A stretch of DNA of 37,303 bases from an uncultured Muribaculaceae bacterium (GTDB taxonomy: Bacteria; Bacteroidota; Bacteroidia; Bacteroidales; Muribaculaceae). This document shows positions 2,319 through 12,520 of this stretch, one piece after another. Each line of letters opens with the position of its first letter. Position 1 is the stretch's first letter. The position numbers and the translations under genes are program-made. Under the pieces are notes generated by a model. It had not been told where the DNA came from, searched no databases, and worked only from the letters and a program-made list of their open reading frames with translations. The DNA lies in contig CAMWLY010000012.1 in the NCBI GenBank assembly GCA_947175145.1, forward strand, positions 1 to 37,303, given 5' to 3'.

Positions 2319-2683
2319 ATCCTCTTACCTAATTTGATTATGAAAACTTCCTTGTCAGTTGGTGCGCCCCAATCGGGGTTGCCGTAGCCGATTGACGTGC
2401 CCTTGAACTCATAGAGCATAGTGACGTTGGTGTAGCCTCGGTGGAAACATACGGCATCGTAATGTTGCCAACGTAATTGAGATTTACCAGCATACTTCTT
2501 GACGACACGCATTATCTCATCTACATCATACCCAATATAGGTTTGCTTTAGATAAATCCAATCGCCTTTTACAAGCAATCGAGAGCAATACAACGATGTT
2601 ATATCTCGGTATTCATCCGTCTTTTCTCCACTCTCAATCATGTCCCACCACTTGCGTTTGAGGACTAAGTGTAGTGTTTTCAT
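2315..2683 (-). CDS. ASCH domain protein (PUA-like fold)
   Basis: A 122-residue protein resembling ASCH/PUA-like phage proteins. It opens with MKTLHLVLKRKWWDMIESGEKTDEYR (within residues 1-26), whose 'KxxWxxMIxSGxKTxEYR' pattern is the usual ASCH start. It later shows YDAVCFHRGYT and ends with a GYG..WGAP block and FIIKLGKRI. The ASCH fold binds nucleic acid, and some members are amidohydrolases acting on modified nucleosides. The substrate here is not known. It lies immediately downstream of the 2680-3006 gene, overlapping by 4 bp. Confidence 0.75.
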   Translation of the reverse strand: MKTLHLVLKRKWWDMIESGEKTDEYRDITSLYCSRLLVKGDWIYLKQTYIGYDVDEIMRVVKKYAGKSQLRWQHYDAVCFHRGYTNVTMLYEFKGTSIGYGNPDWGAPTDKEVFIIKLGKRI

Positions 2684-3006
2684 TTCTTCTCAGTCTTTAT
2701 GTGATTATTCTCCAAGCAATAAATAGCCAACTGATTGAGCGCGTCTATGAGTTCGGGTCTTTCTGTTGCGCCCATAAAGTGATATGCTTCATCACCGCAG
2801 TCCCAAAGCATGTAAGAAACTTCATAGCCTTGCGATGTTGCTTCTATGCTCAGATGATAGCCGTCAATCTCTTTCGGCAGGATTGAGAGAATGTCGGTGA
2901 GAGTAAATACTTTATCTAAGATGAATGTTTCTTCACTCGCCATCTTCGGGTTAACGCCGAGGGAGATGAGGCGGGCGGATTCTTCTATTGTTAAAGTTGT
3001 TTTCAT
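2680..3006 (-). CDS. Phage hypothetical protein, paralog of 3872-4249
   Basis: A 108-residue protein that starts MKTTLTIEESARLISLG and contains TLTDILSILPKEI in the middle and PELIDALNQLAIYCLE near the end. The same blocks occur in the protein at 3872-4249. This type is common in Bacteroidetes phages and has no assigned role. Its ATG overlaps the stop of the small protein at 3003-3137 (ATGA). The paralog is preceded in the same way by a related small protein, which points to duplication of a two-gene unit. Confidence 0.7.
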   Translation of the reverse strand: MKTTLTIEESARLISLGVNPKMASEETFILDKVFTLTDILSILPKEIDGYHLSIEATSQGYEVSYMLWDCGDEAYHFMGATERPELIDALNQLAIYCLENNHIKTEKK

Positions 3007-3137
3007 ATTCCCTTCATTGTTCCTTCATAAAACTTCATTTCCTCGATGCAGTCAACGCAAACTTCCTGTCCGTTCTCTGGCAGCTCTTCCTCGGCTTTGC
3101 GCCACGCGCTCGGCCGTCTCTCTTTCTCTTTTCCCAT
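3003..3137 (-). CDS. Small protein, degenerate zinc-ribbon copy (44 aa)
   Basis: The ORF starts MGKEKERRPSAWRKAEEEL and ends with a block (GQEVCVDCIEEMKFYEGTM) that is identical to the end of the 54-residue protein at 4246-4410. One CxxC is present (CVDC), while the first CxxC of the paralog is missing and replaced by unrelated sequence. It starts 3 bp after the stop of the 3140-3505 gene and its TGA overlaps the next ATG. Metal binding may be lost or may need a partner. Confidence 0.6.
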   Translation of the reverse strand: MGKEKERRPSAWRKAEEELPENGQEVCVDCIEEMKFYEGTMKGI

Positions 3138-3139
3138 CT

Positions 3140-3505
3140 TTATTCGTTGTTGTCGGTTTCGTTCATTATTGCCGTGGCGTCCTCGTCGCTTATCTCCAGA
3201 GCCTCGAACAGAAGCATGATATTGTGGCCCGTACAGTGGTTGTTATACCAGTTCTCGATTATGGCGGCCCGTTTGGCGAAGTCCTCCCCGTCGGTTATCG
3301 GGCGGTGCGTCAGAACCTCCTCGGGCGTGCGCAGCCGGATAAAAATGCGTTTGTACACCTCCCGTCCGTTTATCTTCGCCGAGGGCGAGGCTTTGTCGCC
3401 GGTATAGCCGAGTCCCTCGGCTATCGCGTCTATCTTCTCCCCGGCGGCGAGGTCGTATCTGCGCCCGGTCACCGGGCCGATGTATTCTTTCTTGTTGCTT
3501 CCCAT
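3140..3505 (-). CDS. Hypothetical phage protein
   Basis: A 121-residue soluble protein beginning MGSNKKEYIGPVTGRRYDL and ending with an acidic tail (EISDEDATAIMNETDNNE). The region is markedly GC-richer than its neighbours, which gives long shadow frames on both strands. This frame is chosen because it fits the tight leftward gene spacing: 3 bp after the upstream stop and 2 bp before the next start. No family was recognised. The composition hints at a separate origin from the AT-rich genes to its left. Confidence 0.6.
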   Translation of the reverse strand: MGSNKKEYIGPVTGRRYDLAAGEKIDAIAEGLGYTGDKASPSAKINGREVYKRIFIRLRTPEEVLTHRPITDGEDFAKRAAIIENWYNNHCTGHNIMLLFEALEISDEDATAIMNETDNNE

Positions 3506-3508
3506 CGT

Positions 3509-3688
3509 TCAATTCATTGCAGGATCTTGCGTTCCCAGATCTATCAGGTAATATTTCTCGGTCCTTTGTGTGACCGGCGACGCTGCTTCGGCTGCTCTCT
3601 TTTTAGCCGCCTCTTTGGTTGGCATTTCGCATCCGCAAAGGATTACGACGGCTATGATAGCCAATAGCTATTTTAGGTTATTCTTCAT
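3509..3688 (-). pseudogene. Small lipoprotein with in-frame amber codon
   Basis: Reading from ATG at 3688 gives MKNNLK, then TAG (3668-3670), then LLAIIAVVILCGC, a hydrophobic core and lipobox, and a 40-residue mature part ending in TGA. Basic N-terminus, hydrophobic core and lipobox together form a normal lipoprotein signal apart from the amber codon. Other genes in the element end in TAG (1009, 4460), so TAG is not generally recoded. The gene is either broken by a point change, started weakly at an internal TTG (3662-3664), or read through. Confidence 0.5.
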
Positions 3689-3802
3689 TGCTATTTGCTT
3701 ATCTACCCATTCAGTATCTATCTCGAAAGCGGCTGCCTTGCCAACACACGCAAAAAGCTCATCGCTCAATCGTTCTACAAGTTCAATCGCATCATTAAAC
3801 AT
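3668..3802 (-). CDS. Small hypothetical protein (44 aa)
   Basis: The peptide starts MFNDAIELVERLSDELFA, a helical acidic segment, and ends EWVDKQIAMKNNLK. It shares its reading frame with the lipoprotein frame downstream, so its TAG stop is the amber codon inside that frame. Its start overlaps the end of the 3795-3881 ORF in another frame. Function is unknown. Confidence 0.45.
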   Translation of the reverse strand: MFNDAIELVERLSDELFACVGKAAAFEIDTEWVDKQIAMKNNLK

Positions 3803-3881
3803 AAATTTGTCTTTCAAGTTGAGCTTGAATTTCTTCTACTTGTCTATATATGGCATAAACCTCTTTAGATGTTATTTCCAT
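3795..3881 (-). CDS. Small hypothetical protein (28 aa)
   Basis: The short ORF starts MEITSKEVYAIYRQVEEIQ and forms one predicted amphipathic helix. Its ATG lies inside the last codons of the 3872-4249 gene. This fits the overlapping style of the operon, but the ORF is too short to be sure. Confidence 0.4.
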   Translation of the reverse strand: MEITSKEVYAIYRQVEEIQAQLERQIYV

Positions 3882-4249
3882 TGCTTCTTCTGATTTAAGT
3901 TAATATTTCCGCTCTCCAAGCAATAAATAGCCAACTGATTAAGCGCGTCTATGAGTTCGGGAGCAACCTTTGTATGGTCGCAATATTCAGCGCAGTTGGT
4001 ATATCCTACACGCCATTGACCGCAATGATATATCATTGAAAGGGTGTCGCCGTCACGATGAATTTTAATCTCTTTCGGCAGGATTGAGAGCAAATCTGTG
4101 ATGGTGAACCGAGGCAGTTCCTCAATCTCTAAAAATTGATTGGAATTTTCTTCTGTCTTGTCAACAAATTCTCGACAGCTCGCCAACTTCGCATCAACGC
4201 CAAGTTCGATTAGACGGGCGGATTCTTCAACTTTTAGGGTTGTTTTCAT
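3872..4249 (-). CDS. Phage hypothetical protein, paralog of 2680-3006
   Basis: A 125-residue protein from MKTTLKVEESARLIELG. It contains ITDLLSILPKEIKIHRDGD and APELIDALNQLAIYCLESG, matching the paralog at 2680-3006, and carries an insertion of about 20 residues after the N-terminal block. The start at 4249 is chosen over an upstream frame beginning at 4357, because the sequence before it codes for the zinc-ribbon protein in another frame and because the paralog starts at the same point. The function of the family is unknown. Confidence 0.7.
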   Translation of the reverse strand: MKTTLKVEESARLIELGVDAKLASCREFVDKTEENSNQFLEIEELPRFTITDLLSILPKEIKIHRDGDTLSMIYHCGQWRVGYTNCAEYCDHTKVAPELIDALNQLAIYCLESGNINLNQKKQWK

Positions 4250-4410
4250 ATTCCTTTCATTGTTCCTTCGTAAAACTTCATTTCTTCGATGCAGTCTACA
4301 CAAACTTCCTGTCCGTCCTCGGTATAGATAAGCTCGTCTGACTTTTCTCCGCACCATTCACATTCTCCGCTGTGGAGATCAGAGGAATTGTAGATAGTTT
4401 CTGTTTTCAT
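4246..4410 (-). CDS. Small zinc-ribbon protein (54 aa)
   Basis: The protein starts MKTETIYNSSDLHSGE and carries two CxxC knuckles, CEWC (residues 17-20) and CVDC (37-40), separated by 16 residues. This is the layout of a small treble-clef or zinc-ribbon domain. It probably binds one zinc ion and may bind nucleic acid or protein; the partner is unknown. Its TGA overlaps the next start (ATGA). It is the intact member of a duplicated pair; the copy at 3003-3137 has lost the first CxxC. Confidence 0.65.
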   Translation of the reverse strand: MKTETIYNSSDLHSGECEWCGEKSDELIYTEDGQEVCVDCIEEMKFYEGTMKGI

Positions 4411-6959: not shown

Positions 6960-7919
6960 TTATTTCTCTCCATACGATTGAAATTTAATCTTGCTAAGTG
7001 TTTCAAATGCTTTCTTCATAGACTTTCGCTTCTGGTCCTCGCTCGGGTGCACATACATATCCATGGTTATTGTCACACTGGAGTGTCCGAGCATACGGCT
7101 GGCAGCCGTGATCTCACACCCTGAGCCGACCAGAATTGTCGCGAATGTATGGCGCAAGCCGTGAAATGAAACCTTATCCTTTACCTTTATTGCCGAGATA
7201 TACCGGTTAAATGCCTTTCGCACACCCTCGGCGGTCACCGGCATAGAGCCACCTCCGATCACATAGACAGCCTCCGGGTGCTTCAGCCGATAGGCCCGAA
7301 GTGCATCGCGCACCTGGGGCAGTAGCGGCACCGTGCGATAAGCATTGTTAGTTTTCGGTTCGGTGGTCAATATCCGCTTGCCACCGATATAGTGATAGCG
7401 TGCTTGCCGGCGCACCGTGATGCTCGGTGAGCTGCCTCGCAGCTTCAGATCCTCCCAGTGCAGCCCGCAAACCTCCGAGATGCGTAACCCGGTGGTCATG
7501 CTGATCAGAGCCGGCAGCATCTCCCAGTGACCTCCGCCCATATCGGCAAGTATCGAGGCAAACAGCAGCCGGTGATCTTCCAAACTAAGCACCTCCTTCT
7601 CCCGGCAGCGGGCTTCCGACCACCGCAACCGCAAATTCAGCGGCCTTACCGTGTCCTGAATCGTAGATGCAAATTTTATGATGTCGAGCATACGCTGCAC
7701 CCGCTGTTTTACCGTTGATACCTTATGACCGGCTTCAATCAGATCCTCCTTCATGGCATACACATCGCGCGCGCTGATGGCTTCAACCGGAGTGTCACCA
7801 AATCGCTTCTCAAGCTGTCGGGCATGACTGCCATACATTCTCCAGGTCGAAAGGCTGCAAGTCAGATGTATGTCATCAAGCCATTCACGACAGGCTTCTC
7901 TTACGGTCATATTTTTCAT
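6960..7919 (-). CDS. int: Tyrosine recombinase, phage integrase
   Basis: A 319-residue integrase with an N-terminal SAM-like core-binding domain (about 1-100) and a catalytic domain. Catalytic residues are visible: Arg146 in TGLRISEV, Lys189 in EPKT, His253 and Arg256 in HGLRHTF, His279 in LGHSS and Tyr289 in MDMYVH. It should integrate and excise the element. It is first in the leftward early operon and about 3.2 kb from the host junction, so it is not directly beside the attachment site. A strong dyad (7954-7980) and repeats of ATTATCAG lie upstream, a probable operator. Confidence 0.95.
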   Translation of the reverse strand: MKNMTVREACREWLDDIHLTCSLSTWRMYGSHARQLEKRFGDTPVEAISARDVYAMKEDLIEAGHKVSTVKQRVQRMLDIIKFASTIQDTVRPLNLRLRWSEARCREKEVLSLEDHRLLFASILADMGGGHWEMLPALISMTTGLRISEVCGLHWEDLKLRGSSPSITVRRQARYHYIGGKRILTTEPKTNNAYRTVPLLPQVRDALRAYRLKHPEAVYVIGGGSMPVTAEGVRKAFNRYISAIKVKDKVSFHGLRHTFATILVGSGCEITAASRMLGHSSVTITMDMYVHPSEDQKRKSMKKAFETLSKIKFQSYGEK

Positions 7920-8370: not shown

Positions 8371-8526
8371 TCGGGGTCTGATGCCTCCCGGCAGCTCGCC
8401 CCATACTAATGAAGATTGTCGTAAAACTTACATCTGAAAAAAACACTATATGCTTATAAAAGCAGAAATCAGTTGTGCAAAATAGATTGATTTCGGAGCT
8501 CTCTTGCTCCGGGTGTCTGTCGCAGA
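8371..8526. other. Non-coding stretch with hairpins
   Basis: No ORF is convincing here. A 6-bp hairpin, CGGAGC with GCTCCG (8494-8511), lies just past the stop of the excisionase-like gene and may terminate it on the minus strand. A second dyad, AGACCCC with GGGGTCT (8372-8378 with 8349-8355), is an alternative fold to part of the RNA-like structure. Confidence 0.45.
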
Positions 8527-8886
8527 TTAACCCATATCGTTTTTCGGTCTTCGCTTGCCGTAATAGCCCAGGCCATTCACTCCGGCATTCTTGAAAGCGA
8601 AATTCAGGTCGTTTTTGCAGAATATCCACTTTTCGCCCACCTTGCGGCCTGCAAGCTGAGGGGCGTGATCGCGCACCCATTCCTTGCTGAAGCCATATCG
8701 CTCGCTCACCTGCTCCACATTCAGAATTTCATCTGTAGCGAAGCCGATACCCTCGAGCACCTTATCCACAATCTTATCGGCCACCTTGCTCAGGATCTTC
8801 TCGCCGAGCTTTCTGGTGATAGCCTCCGTGAGCTTGTTCATATCGGTTTGTGCCAACCGATAGGTCTGAATGGATTGTACTGCCAT
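8527..8886 (-). CDS. Excisionase-like helix-turn-helix protein
   Basis: A 119-residue protein. The N-terminal half is helical (ITRKLGEKILSKVADKIVDK). The C-terminal part, from about residue 54, reads ILNVEQVSERYGFSKEWVRD and then KVGEKWIF, a typical excisionase/MerR-type winged helix (helix-turn-helix, then the wing 'K-V-G-x-x-W'). It lies between the Cro-like gene and the integrase, where excisionases and directionality factors are usually found. It may bend attachment-site DNA or regulate int; which of these cannot be told from the sequence. Confidence 0.7.
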   Translation of the reverse strand: MAVQSIQTYRLAQTDMNKLTEAITRKLGEKILSKVADKIVDKVLEGIGFATDEILNVEQVSERYGFSKEWVRDHAPQLAGRKVGEKWIFCKNDLNFAFKNAGVNGLGYYGKRRPKNDMG

Positions 8887-8904
8887 AATGCTGATTTTTG
8901 ATGG

Positions 8905-9123
8905 TTATCGAACTCGTGGGAATAATTCTTCGGGGGTTGTGCCGAAATGCTCGGCAAGCACACTTTGAGTCAGAGCATCCGGCTCAGTGGCCCCTGACAG
9001 CCATCGGCGGACTGCCGGTTCGCTTTTCTTGGTCACCTCTATCACTTCGAGGATAAAAGCAGTGGCCGGGGCTACCGGCTTCTGCTGCTTCTTGGCATTC
9101 TGATATAGTTCTATCAGTGTCAT
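8905..9123 (-). CDS. Cro-like regulator
   Basis: A 72-residue protein with a predicted helix-turn-helix (FILEVIEVTKKSEPAVRRWL, then a turn, then LTQSVLAEHFGTTPEELF). It is divergent from the CI-like repressor across a 125-bp switch region and is first in the leftward transcript, so it occupies the Cro position of a lambdoid-type switch. The small size and lack of any second domain fit. The role is inferred from context. Confidence 0.65.
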   Translation of the reverse strand: MTLIELYQNAKKQQKPVAPATAFILEVIEVTKKSEPAVRRWLSGATEPDALTQSVLAEHFGTTPEELFPRVR

Positions 9124-9129
9124 ATTCTA

Positions 9130-9160
9130 TTGTTTTATTTGTAGTTTGCGATTATATTTG
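9130..9160 (+). promoter_or_regulatory. Repressor promoter, rightward
   Basis: TTG (9130-9132) and -7 box TATATTTG (9153-9160) are separated by exactly 20 bp. Transcription would start near 9167 and run to the CI-like gene at 9249. Confidence 0.65.
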
Positions 9161-9184
9161 CGATAGGTTTTTGCTATCGTGCTG

Positions 9185-9215
9185 CAAATATAAATACGAT
9201 ATTCAATATGTGCAA
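9185..9215 (-). promoter_or_regulatory. Cro/early promoter, leftward
   Basis: On the minus strand TTG (9213-9215) and TATATTTG (9185-9192) are separated by 20 bp. Transcription would start near 9178 and run left into the Cro-like gene. It faces the rightward promoter, with the dyad CGATAG...CTATCG (9161-9179) between the two -7 boxes. Confidence 0.65.
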
Positions 9216-9228
9216 TATCATATTGAAT
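9201..9228. promoter_or_regulatory. 10-bp operator dyad
   Basis: ATTCAATATG and CATATTGAAT are perfect inverted repeats around 8 bp. The site overlaps the -33 element of the leftward promoter and ends 20 bp before the repressor start. This fits a repressor site that shuts off the early transcript. Confidence 0.65.
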
Positions 9229-9248
9229 AATTAACATCTATTAACACT

Positions 9249-9710
9249 ATGGAATTAAAAGAACGTATTGCTGCACTATTGAAATATTCTCAAAAGAATA
9301 TTTCTGAATTTTCTCGCTTTGTTGGATTTAGAACTCCTCAAGCAGTGCGCGAATTAATTAAAGGGAATACTAAATCTCTTTCAGAAATTGCATATAGCAA
9401 GATCATCTCAGCATTCCCCGAAATAAACCAAGATTGGCTATTGACCGGTGAAGGCGAAATGCTGCGCAGCAATGGAGCGGACATAGAAAATTATACTGCC
9501 AGCGGCTCGCAAGCCGTGGCAGCACGAAATGTGGAAACCATAAACCAAACTCAAACCGGCGATGCAGCCCTCATCGAGCAGATGAAGCAGCGTATCGCCA
9601 CACTCGAAAACCAACTCCGGGATAAGGAAACTATAATTGATCTTCTGAAAAAAATATCATCGACCGCGCAACCCAACCACGCCGCCGATGACTCCGACCC
9701 AACCCACTAA
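9249..9710 (+). CDS. CI-like phage repressor without peptidase domain
   Basis: A 153-residue protein. Residues 1-75 form a helix-turn-helix domain of Bacteroidetes phage repressor type, with FSRFVGFRTPQAVRELIKG and the usual ending INQDWLLTGEGEML. The C-terminal third is a coiled coil (ALIEQMKQRIATLENQLRDK). The S24/LexA-type peptidase domain found in many CI repressors is absent, so release by RecA-driven self-cleavage is not expected. The last 36 bases plus the stop lie within the first 45-bp direct repeat. The cargo gene starts 13 bp downstream and is probably cotranscribed. Confidence 0.8.
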   Translation: MELKERIAALLKYSQKNISEFSRFVGFRTPQAVRELIKGNTKSLSEIAYSKIISAFPEINQDWLLTGEGEMLRSNGADIENYTASGSQAVAARNVETINQTQTGDAALIEQMKQRIATLENQLRDKETIIDLLKKISSTAQPNHAADDSDPTH

Positions 9711-9717
9711 TTAACCC
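9673..9717 (+). repeat. 45-bp perfect direct repeat, copy 1
   Basis: This copy covers the last 12 codons and stop of the CI-like repressor and 7 bases beyond. It is identical to 11030-11074. The two copies are 1357 bp apart and enclose the STAS-GHKL and STAS-like genes. Confidence 0.95.
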
Positions 9718-9723
9718 GGCAAA

Positions 9724-10650
9724 GTGACCCATAATCATGTACAACACATACTAATTCCTCACGCGGTTGCTGATGATAGAATCGGAAGCATCTTTAACCA
9801 TGTGTTTCAGATTCTGGCCAAAACAGAAGAGGTTTTGGCCGATGGGAATGCGTCTGTAGTTTGGGACTTCGAGCGCTGCGAATTTCTTCACCCTTTTTAT
9901 GTGGCGGCTCTCGGTGTACTCAAATCTCGGTATCCGAACATGATTTATGTGGAAGGTTGTAACCCAATTCTGGGCGGATATTTAGAAGCTGTTCATTTCC
10001 ACGAACCTCTAAAATTAGGCTTGCTTTCGGGTCAAAATTTATGGAATCTTTACAATGATCGTTCCTATCTCCCTATTTGTGCGTTTGATCCGAGAAATGA
10101 AAATATATCGCTCAACGCTCAGACTATGATTCAGAATGTCCTGAAAAGCCAAATTGGCAGGCATCCGCTGATACATCAAGTAATTTCCTTGCTAATGGCC
10201 GAATTGATAGACAACATAACCGACCACTCAAAAAGTCCGTTAGGATACATATTTTGTCAGAGATTGAAACAAAGGCAAGCGTTATATCTATACATAGGTG
10301 ATGCCGGACAATCGGTGTATTCATCTTATGCTACCGATGCAAGATATAGTCACCTGCTTTCAAATCTCGAATCGTCTGCACTTAAACTTGCTATGAGTGG
10401 CAAATCAACCAAAAATCGCCCGGAAGCTGAGAATCGAGGGTATGGCATATCGAAATCGAGAAGCCTGATAGTCGATGGTCTTGGCGGGGCTTTCTTTATG
10501 CTTTCGGGGAATGCTTTTTTCAGGCATGATGCTAATTCTGAAATAATAGTAGATTTACCTGAAAGTATACGTTGGGACGGTACTGTCATTCTTATGGAAA
10601 TCCCTCTTAACAAGGTTGATAACCTGAATATATATGATTATATTAGCTGA
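9724..10650 (+). CDS. STAS-like / GHKL ATPase fusion protein
   Basis: A 308-residue protein starting at GTG; no ATG fits upstream of the conserved part. Residues about 40-90 resemble a STAS fold (SVVWDFERCEFLHPFYVAAL). Residues about 145-300 are a GHKL ATPase. The N box has Glu160, Asp163, Asn164 and His168 (AELIDNITDHS), the G1 box is GDAGQS (Asp193, Gly195) and the G2 box is RGYGIS (238-243). There is no phosphoacceptor His domain or membrane span, so it resembles an anti-sigma-type kinase more than a sensor kinase. It pairs with the STAS-like gene next door and sits between 45-bp direct repeats as phage cargo. Defence or lysogenic conversion are possible roles, not shown. Confidence 0.75.
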   Translation: MTHNHVQHILIPHAVADDRIGSIFNHVFQILAKTEEVLADGNASVVWDFERCEFLHPFYVAALGVLKSRYPNMIYVEGCNPILGGYLEAVHFHEPLKLGLLSGQNLWNLYNDRSYLPICAFDPRNENISLNAQTMIQNVLKSQIGRHPLIHQVISLLMAELIDNITDHSKSPLGYIFCQRLKQRQALYLYIGDAGQSVYSSYATDARYSHLLSNLESSALKLAMSGKSTKNRPEAENRGYGISKSRSLIVDGLGGAFFMLSGNAFFRHDANSEIIVDLPESIRWDGTVILMEIPLNKVDNLNIYDYIS

Positions 10651-10670
10651 TAACACTTAGACTTAAAGCT

Positions 10671-11015
10671 ATGAATACAATTAGAGTAACATCTGTAATA
10701 GGACCCGATATAAGAACGAGATTATTCTTCAGGAAGCATATTGATGATATTATGTCAAGGAATAATCCTTATGTGATATTTGATTTCAGCGGAGTTGAAT
10801 TTATCTCACGCTCGGTGGCAGATGAAATATTCAACATTCAGTTGGATTATAACCGCATTAAGATTATGGGTCTTGAGGGCGATGTGAAGAAAATGTATGA
10901 GGTGGTTCGCCAAGGTCGCATATCTCCTCGCAGATATCCGGATTCAAATATCACCACCATTCGTCTGCACAACATGGAGGAATTAAATAACTATTTTGGA
11001 AATGCAACATGGTGA
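10671..11015 (+). CDS. STAS-like (DUF4325-type) protein
   Basis: A 114-residue protein with the core YVIFDFSGVEFISRSVADEI (about residues 34-53), which matches the beta-strand, loop, helix of STAS-like DUF4325 proteins. The Ser after the Ile in 'EFIS' is at the place where anti-anti-sigma factors are phosphorylated. It lies 20 bp after the STAS-GHKL gene. By analogy with SpoIIAA/SpoIIAB or RsbV/RsbW it may be bound and phosphorylated by that ATPase. The partner that the pair controls is not visible. The second 45-bp repeat begins 15 bp after its stop. Confidence 0.7.
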   Translation: MNTIRVTSVIGPDIRTRLFFRKHIDDIMSRNNPYVIFDFSGVEFISRSVADEIFNIQLDYNRIKIMGLEGDVKKMYEVVRQGRISPRRYPDSNITTIRLHNMEELNNYFGNATW

Positions 11016-11029
11016 AAATATCAGGGGAA

Positions 11030-11074
11030 CCAACCACGCCGCCGATGACTCCGACCCAACCCACTAATTAACCC
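11030..11074 (+). repeat. 45-bp perfect direct repeat, copy 2
   Basis: Identical to 9673-9717. In the same frame it would again read ...HAADDSDPTH and stop, so it looks like the original 3' end of the repressor gene, moved away when the cargo entered. It ends about 126 bp before the host junction. Confidence 0.95.
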
Positions 11075-11173
11075 CCGGGATACCCCTGAATAACCCCGAA
11101 AAAGATAGAAAAGTATTACATATTTGCAACACCTCCAATTCTGAAATTAGTCTAACAAATTGAGAACCTGAAA
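11075..11173. other. Terminal non-coding part of the element
   Basis: No ORF or clear terminator is seen. The stretch lies between the second 45-bp repeat and the truncated ABC-F gene and should contain integrase arm sites. Short repeats of the type CTGAAATTA (11141-11149 and 11168-11176) and AATTCTGAAATTAGT are candidates. Confidence 0.4.
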
Positions 11174-12520
11174 TTACTCTAATCCTATGATATTCCCAAC
11201 CAGATCATTGGTCGGTTCATCGAGCACAAGAAAATTCGGGTTACGCATCAGCACGGTAGCAAGATAGAGTCTTCGACGCTCACCCCCGCTGAGTTTGGAG
11301 ATATATTTCTGTTGTGTTTCGGGAGTAAACAGGAAGCGAGAGAGGAAAGCCGAAGCTGAAATCCGGGTCTTATCATCGATTCTGACATCTTCGGAGATCT
11401 CGCGCACGGCATCGATCACTTTCTTTGTTTCATCGAAATCGGTCATGCCCTGCTGGCTGTAATAACCCCAGCGCACGGTCTGACCCACATCGAAGCTGCC
11501 GAAATCAGGCTGAATCTCACCGAGAAGCATCTTAATAAAGGTGGATTTACCAACACCGTTGCCACCTACTATTCCCACCTTCTCATATCGGGCGAAATTG
11601 TAGGACCAATCGTTGATAATCTTCTTATCACCGAACGCTTTGGTCACATGTTTCGCCTCGAAAATCTTGGAGCCAACATAACCGGCCTTAACCTCGAGCT
11701 GCACATTGGCACGGCTGAGATTAGTATGGGACTTTTCTTCAAGCTGATGGAAATTATCTATCCTGTATTTTGCTTTTGAACCCCGGGCCTGAGGCTGTCG
11801 GCGCATCCACTCGGTTTCAGTGCGCAGGAGATTGCGCACGCGCGCGAGTTCGGCATCCATAGCTTCATAGCGCTCCGCACGCCGACGCAGATAATACTCA
11901 TAGTCACCATCGTAGGTAAACATTCGCCCACGGTCAATCTCCATGATGCGGCTGCAGACTTTATCCAGGAAGTAGCGGTCATGTGTCACCATAAGCAGAG
12001 TCACACGCTGCCGCTGCAGATAATTCTCAAGCCATTCCACCATTTCGATATCGAGGTGGTTGGTAGGCTCATCGAGTATCAGCATATCCGGCTGAGTCAA
12101 TAGCACTTTGGCGAGTGCCACGCGCTTAGTCTGGCCACCCGACATCTCACCCAGAGTCTGGTCGGGGTTATCTATGCCAAACTGGGTGAGCATACGCCGT
12201 GTGCGTTCGGGGCCATCCCAATCCGCAGCATCATCAGTCCCCTCAGGCGCAGGGGCCGCCCACTCCACAGCCGGCATATCGGCCGGCATATCGGGCTGCT
12301 GCTCAAGATAGCCTACACGCAAACCATTGCGATAAACCACACGACCGGAATCATAATCCTCCTTGCCGGCAAGTATATTGAGAAGTGTGGTCTTGCCATC
12401 TCCATTGCGGGCCACTATCCCTATCTTATCTCCCTCATAGACTCCGAAAGTCATGTCGGAGAATAGAAGTCTGTCGCCAAACGACTTGGCGAGACCTTCG
12501 ACCTGCAGGTTACTTATCAT
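11174..12520 (-). pseudogene. uup: Uup-type ABC-F ATPase, truncated by the prophage
   Basis: A 448-residue reading frame with the first ATPase domain complete: ARNGDGKTT, MSGGQTKRVALAKVLL, LILDEPTNHLD and THDRYF. The linker follows, then the second domain up to GGNGVGKST, LSGGERRRL and Walker [11 protein letters not shown]. It then ends abruptly in VGNIIGLE and a stop. Family members continue for about 180 more residues, with the second H-switch and a coiled-coil tail. ABC-F proteins act on ribosomes or DNA repair; loss of the second site should impair this one. It is last in the operon after the CapA-like gene (11-bp overlap). Confidence 0.85.

Follow-up and report, generated by a model that had tools for sequence, protein, structure and literature searches.

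The described systems closest to the gene pair treated here are CapK/CapS and VapK/VapS, whose mechanism was set out in a recent report (EMBO J 2026, PMC13373217). According to the accessible sections of that report, activation by ssDNA is demonstrated for CapK and proposed for VapK; the gene of the CapK GHKL kinase is followed by that of its STAS substrate, the kinase carries an HTH, the substrate a winged-helix domain, and both genes lie upstream of an immune operon. Gene pairs next to phage repressors are also on record: the lambda rex genes adjoin cI and are read from PRM (PMC11077077), and genes 43 and 44 of CarolAnn are coexpressed with the repressor (PMC6426606), as the available parts of these two papers describe. 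For restriction-modification genes, insertion accompanied by long, variable target duplications has been proposed (PMC3031569, PMC3154945, citing Nobusato 2000; partial texts).

We analysed a window of 37,303 nucleotides, the whole stretch of DNA under study, from an uncultured Muribaculaceae bacterium, in which a kinase-STAS pair lies between a phage CI-like repressor gene and the end of the prophage. Like CapK/CapS, the pair consists of a GHKL kinase gene followed by a STAS gene; unlike CapK/CapS as portrayed in those sections, it has neither the HTH on the kinase nor the winged helix on the STAS protein, and it sits behind a repressor instead of upstream of an immune operon. The arrangement described there for VapK/VapS of VapKSC, a STAS-GHKL kinase free of an N-terminal HTH and then a short STAS protein with a conserved Ser/Thr, is also the one found here. 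The reading that we favour, with moderate confidence, is that the two genes form a mobile partner-switch cassette of kinase and STAS protein, that their insertion behind CI duplicated the 3' end of the repressor gene, and that they would act through a stress-triggered switch at Ser48 of the STAS protein.

The gene pair and its repeats in a split prophage

The first gene of the pair (9724..10650, + strand, GTG start) encodes a protein of 308 aa in which an N-terminal STAS domain precedes a GHKL kinase domain of predicted SpoIIAB-like fold. The STAS match, of the RsbS type, covers residues 3-97, and this start at residue 3 leaves no room for an HTH ahead of it; none was found. The second gene (10671..11015, + strand) encodes a DUF4325 STAS protein of 114 aa (Pfam PF14213, 4.9e-5, just over the cut-off), which in its structural model (pLDDT 90.9) shows the STAS elements, one C-terminal helix (residues 102-111) after them and no winged-helix domain. 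Ser48 is invariant in 19 of 19 aligned sequences of this protein and stands at the start of a helix (47-59) in the model. We regard the STAS protein as the likely substrate of the kinase, and infer that together they function as a two-gene partner-switch module. Foldseek searches with both models returned nothing at E 0.001 or better, the best matches being SpoIIAB (1.4e-3) and STAS domains (from 3.3e-2), and comparison of both sequences with solved structures gave chance-level matches only. Two PADLOC candidates, DrmA (3e-4) and PDC-M14B (1.3e-3), were weak partial matches and were not accepted. The original prediction had called this a two-gene STAS/GHKL cassette; both genes are there, but the GHKL protein comes from the first ORF and the lone STAS protein from the second, so the order in its title is reversed.

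These two + strand ORFs are enclosed by direct repeats at 9673-9717 and 11030-11074, both on the + strand. As had been predicted, the repeats are 100% identical over 45 nt, at a spacing of 1357 (repeat search of the window, string equality rechecked), and for a perfect 45-bp repeat within 37 kb chance is excluded. The sequence occurs in only these 2 places in the genome (2.07 Mb, 139 contigs, 93.76% complete). Copy 1 comprises the final 38 nt of the CI ORF (9249-9710), stop included, and 7 further nt, and is thus the 3' end of the CI-like gene that it had been taken for; copy 2, which starts 14 nt past the STAS stop, at present lies inside no ORF of at least 60 aa in the window's ORF list. That the cassette lacks a recombinase also holds, with neither ORF matching one in Pfam and PHROG scans. 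Its GC content (0.40) is near that of CI (0.425) and so gives no independent sign of foreign origin.

The kinase start lies 13 nt past the CI stop on the same strand, a gap that leaves no intergenic room for a promoter, and the pair is therefore probably read together with CI in the lysogen, though a promoter inside CI is also possible. Before CI itself we found no strict Bacteroidetes-type promoter pattern, and sigma-70-like promoter matches were no more frequent than in shuffles.

The CI-like repressor (9249..9710, + strand, 153 aa; PHROG 8 at 5.7e-7, PHROG 4 at 2e-5) shows no S24 autoprotease match in Pfam. Divergent from it runs the gene of a small protein with a weak likeness to HTH regulators (8905..9123, - strand; Pfam HTH_3 at 0.012, below the cut-off, and PHROG 19579 at 0.009), and the - strand also carries an excisionase-like HTH protein (8527..8886; PHROG 1840, 2.1e-6) and, in the early operon, a second tyrosine recombinase resembling XerC/D (6960..7919; Pfam PF00589 at 2.5e-23, PHROG 1 at 3.4e-56). 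The integrase next to the attachment site is another gene, a 376-aa tyrosine integrase on contig C8 (L084:3665-4795). The attR core, TGATCTGG (11200..11207, - strand), is common to the attL side on C8 and lies 125 bp past repeat copy 2, inside a host ABC-F ATPase gene (11174..12520, - strand) that the prophage interrupts about 440 residues into a protein of about 600. Of the 24 same-genus relatives searched, 21 carry a 595-687-aa open frame in which the match stops at residue 440-441, and the other 3 gave weaker matches only; the integration point is a DEPTND motif, and about the last quarter of the protein is severed. The missing part (G000:C8:35964-36431) adjoins the 376-aa integrase, and a protein further inward on C8 has a weak tape-measure likeness (9e-4). 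The shared TGATCTGG and the split ABC-F gene show that a prophage carrying tailed-phage genes, spread over at least two contigs, has its right end here. The cassette is located within this prophage, between CI and attR, and no ORF of at least 60 aa lies wholly between the STAS stop at 11015 and attR at 11200.

In keeping with the core at 11200-11207, common to C8, the 45-bp repeat was rejected as the attachment site of the prophage. We also rejected a Mu-like transposable phage: the scanned proteins of the window and of C8, a part of all ORFs, included no accepted transposase, DnaD- and DnaC-like loaders are present, and a tyrosine integrase adjoins attL. In IMG/VR or phage records, from which those very near the source genome are possibly absent, the exact 45-bp repeat had 0 matches and the early recombinase no confirmed relative; with the same reservation, the DNA of 8500-11300 matched no phage. 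CI has one relative in these collections (64% over residues 1-72). Elsewhere in the window (2680-4357), repeats of 142, 49 and 42 nt, 83-98% identical, are common to two stretches of phage genes that lie about 1.2 kb from each other.

Distribution of the pair and its linkage to CI genes

Pairs of this kind are present both in phages and in genomes of Bacteroidales. With its own genome counted, the kinase occurs in 3 of 111 genomes at genus level, in 12 of 397 at family level (E 1e-30) and in 20 of 393 at order level (E 1e-15). Among the matches listed, a STAS match stands beside the kinase at 46 of 48 loci scanned, the exceptions being L101 and L104, and likewise in 14 of 14 additional stretches, which in part show the same loci at greater length. 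Relatives of the kinase reside on genome contigs, in Bacteroides phage BF1-TP2, in a faecal phage record and on IMG/VR contigs; against IMG/VR or phage records the kinase found no match as a single sequence and 11 loci as an alignment, and its plasmid relatives come to one distant archaeal match. Many pair loci lie on genome contigs with no phage context noticed. A tree of 37 kinases does not separate phage copies from genome copies: L105, on a viral contig, pairs with L152 (on a 1.6-Mb contig, beside a nicotinate phosphoribosyltransferase gene) and L109, also viral, with L160 (beside pheT). The window locus, L153 and L105 belong to a supported clade (100/99), inside which L053, L054 and L152 also fall. 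At L047:5986-6893, of which L158 is a second view, a stop interrupts the kinase gene of a pair flanked by perfect 68-bp repeats, and some copies of the pair thus seem to decay.

We surveyed the neighbours of the pair (ORFs of at least 60 aa, up to three per side within 1.2 kb, blastp 1e-6) at 47 loci, among the matches listed, and found no conserved third gene beyond near relatives, downstream genes being common only to L004/L111 and to L162/L163. In the same survey the largest recurring neighbour family is CI: a CI-like gene lies directly upstream, in the same direction, at the window locus, L105, L108 and L153, with the gap at the last three at most 50 nt. The next family is a gene of 140-151 aa upstream at L003, L107 and L109. 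The linked CI proteins are diverse. Pfam finds S24 in that of L105 only; the CI of L153 (233 aa) shows HTH families only in Pfam and aligns with PHROG 4 along most of its length, and the short ones, of the window (153 aa) and of L108 (137 aa), do not show S24. The CI-linked pairs sit in two clades, with L108 apart from the window locus, L105 and L153, which implies two or more origins of the linkage, or its transfer.

No repeats flank the pair at L105, L108 or L153, and the linkage to CI therefore does not need a repeat. The original prediction would have been undone if related phages all carried the two genes in this place and the second repeat were part of a conserved functional site. The first half is seen in these three loci, which do carry the pair behind CI; the second is not, since pairs that are CI-linked and repeat-free speak against a conserved functional role of the second repeat.

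The same three loci bear on a different history, in which the CI-pair order is an old phage operon and illegitimate recombination of related phages added a second CI 3' end, leaving the repeat as the scar of a mosaic joint. Their repeat-free CI-pair order is what such a history would predict, as is the clade that unites the window locus with L153 and L105 and that L053, L054 and L152 share. Against it, eight of the nine repeat-flanked loci described below are not CI-linked, and in the CI relatives L052, L038 and L055 the stretches examined show no pair following the CI gene. We regard this history as possible but hold it only tentatively. As a separate observation, L052:1-3100 (G016:C64) contains two tandem CI-like genes with a 167-aa ORF between them, the second adjoining a non-phage-like gene; they share segments of 154 bp (93%) and 128 bp (91%) round differing N-terminal parts, possibly a repressor duplication.

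Direct repeats around related pairs

To return to the mobile cassette that we favour, it finds support in repeats at other pair loci. We listed 48 independent loci, of which four (L050, L095, L110, L115) have too little flank, leaving 44 for testing; dropped beforehand were L101 and L104 (no STAS), L051 (like L049), L112-L114 (like L111) and second views (L085 and L161 of L046, L158 of L047), and short loci were replaced by longer stretches. The loci are a similarity-ranked set, among the matches listed, as opposed to a random sample, and the controls come from the same contigs. Counting direct repeats within 350 bp on both sides (blastn 1e-4), we find them at 9 of the 44 independent pair loci among the matches listed, at lengths of 45-475 bp, and at 0 of 215 gene-bounded control units of 1.0-1.8 kb (Fisher 5.6e-8). 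Wider controls of 0.6-2.6 kb gave 4 of 445 (p 9e-8), or 1 of 96 (p 1e-4) for the units with gaps of 80 bp or more on both sides. A scan for 18-nt exact matches found 9 of 46 pairs, duplicates included, compared with 12 of 4207 sliding units, every one of which fell in L049; with no distance limit, direct repeats flank 11 of 46 pairs and 8 of 210 control units, L110 alone accounting for 5 of the latter.

The nine repeats are those of the window (45 bp, 100%), L044 (94 bp, 97%), L045 (475 bp, 92%), L046 (66 bp, 100%), L047 (68 bp, 100%), L049 (119 bp, 76%), L160 (60 bp, 95%), L162 (100 bp, 96%) and L156 (53 bp, 100%); L042, with 38 bp at 95%, falls outside the 350-bp limit and was left out. No similarity among the nine is found at E 0.01. 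That repeat-flanked relatives are unusually common suggests movement of the two genes together, as a small unit that lacks its own recombinase.

What the repeats consist of differs from locus to locus. In the window and in L160, a native gene 3' end, stop included, makes up one of the copies: that of CI in the former, that of pheT (final 20 codons) in the latter. The L156 repeat is a hairpin after the upstream OmpA-like gene, and the first 33 of its 53 nt are present at the end of the same gene in G646, whose contig stops 67 nt later and for which the family search lists no kinase match. The L044 repeat also holds a hairpin, and that of L046 is what we take to be a promoter-like segment just before a DUF3791 gene. 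These hairpins and the putative promoter-like segment would fit repeats that arose by chance or serve a regulatory role, as duplicated terminators or operators might, and have no connection with movement of the pair. Inverted repeats are in excess too (3 of 44 pairs against 0 of 215 controls within 350 bp; 3 of 46 against 5 of 210 with no distance limit), so that some flanks are repeat-rich; but copy 1 of the window is coding sequence, the repeats are mutually unrelated, and the controls stand at 0/215 and 4/445, and we consider such an origin very unlikely.

Empty sites offer a further comparison. In a pair-less relative of G376 (L162), G443, the outer flanks are almost contiguous and the repeat is absent, so the L162 repeat is no simple target duplication and came with or after the insert. 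Between these sister species (L162, L164) the difference is an insert of about 3.9 kb, which takes in most of a 628-aa ORF as well as segments duplicated in a complex way. For L085/L046, each flank occurs in relatives, never both in one place, and no clean empty site was found for the window prophage. Target duplication is thus plausible for some of the repeat-flanked loci, not for all.

Proposed origin of the cassette and comparison with known systems

Entry of a cassette is supported because the pair occurs in many unrelated contexts and is flanked by repeats far more often than the control units, and because one repeat copy is native sequence in the window, L160 and L156. The predicted insertion at the repressor's 3' end, with the gene kept intact, gains support in this way, in part when the reading is taken as a whole. 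We propose that the pair would have arrived as a unit, in an event that duplicated the final 45 bp of the CI region, and that this duplication would have kept CI intact and placed the pair under the repressor's promoter. The kinase would be quiet in the lysogen until it senses a stress signal, perhaps ssDNA by analogy with CapK, and would then phosphorylate Ser48, by which the STAS protein would be freed from, or recruited to, a partner. The outcome could be superinfection exclusion or a bias in the lysis-lysogeny switch. Since no third gene recurs, the effect would have to come from the STAS protein itself or from a partner of host or phage origin, CI for example; and with two of the four linked CI proteins short and free of an autoprotease domain, there would be room for a stress input supplied by the pair.

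The other part of the original prediction, a satellite mobilised in trans, finds no support: in the 12 kb round the attL side no stretch of the 45-bp repeat of at least 11 nt occurs (one 10-nt match), the nine repeats are unrelated, and many pair loci lie on genome contigs with no phage context noticed. Many integrase sites are gene 3' ends that include the stop, and the repeat has this character both in the window and at pheT in L160, with a second tyrosine recombinase (6960-7919) close by; yet site-specific integration, in which the 45 bp would be an att core and a satellite would be moved in trans by such an enzyme, is the least probable of the readings, given nine unrelated repeats of 45 to 475 bp, no copy on the attL side, a prophage core at another site and no third copy in the genome. 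A long target duplication, as for restriction-modification genes, would explain a cassette that has no recombinase acting in trans. The full extension of the favoured reading, in which the recombinase-free pair spreads through Bacteroidales genomes and phages by long target duplication, repeatedly settles behind repressors and equips short CI proteins that show no autoprotease domain, like those of this prophage and L108, with their own stress input, which would decide whether rivals are excluded or the prophage is induced, is in our judgement unlikely as a whole.

Compared with SpoIIAB/SpoIIAA and RsbW/RsbV, the window kinase has an additional N-terminal STAS domain, and no sigma factor gene was noticed nearby. 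Ser48 matches the Ser/Thr phospho-acceptor of VapKSC by position in the fold; VapKSC includes the PIN nuclease VapC, whereas here neither VapC nor any other gene lies between the STAS gene and attR. Lambda rexAB and CarolAnn 43/44 are likewise two genes beside a repressor, the window pair being colinear with CI and directly behind it; no Rex or DUF4747 match was found in Pfam and PHROG scans. Three themes, stress-sensing kinase/STAS immunity pairs, repressor-linked cargo and target-duplication mobility, meet here in one gene family, and we found no paper joining them in the open-access literature. If the proposal is true, the pair offers a small, testable system for the movement of a defence-like module without its own recombinase and for its capture by the promoter of a phage repressor. 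The insertion of restriction-modification genes, as the available texts describe it, likewise concerns a small recombinase-free module between long, variable direct repeats, with the difference that the pair in the window is no restriction-modification system.
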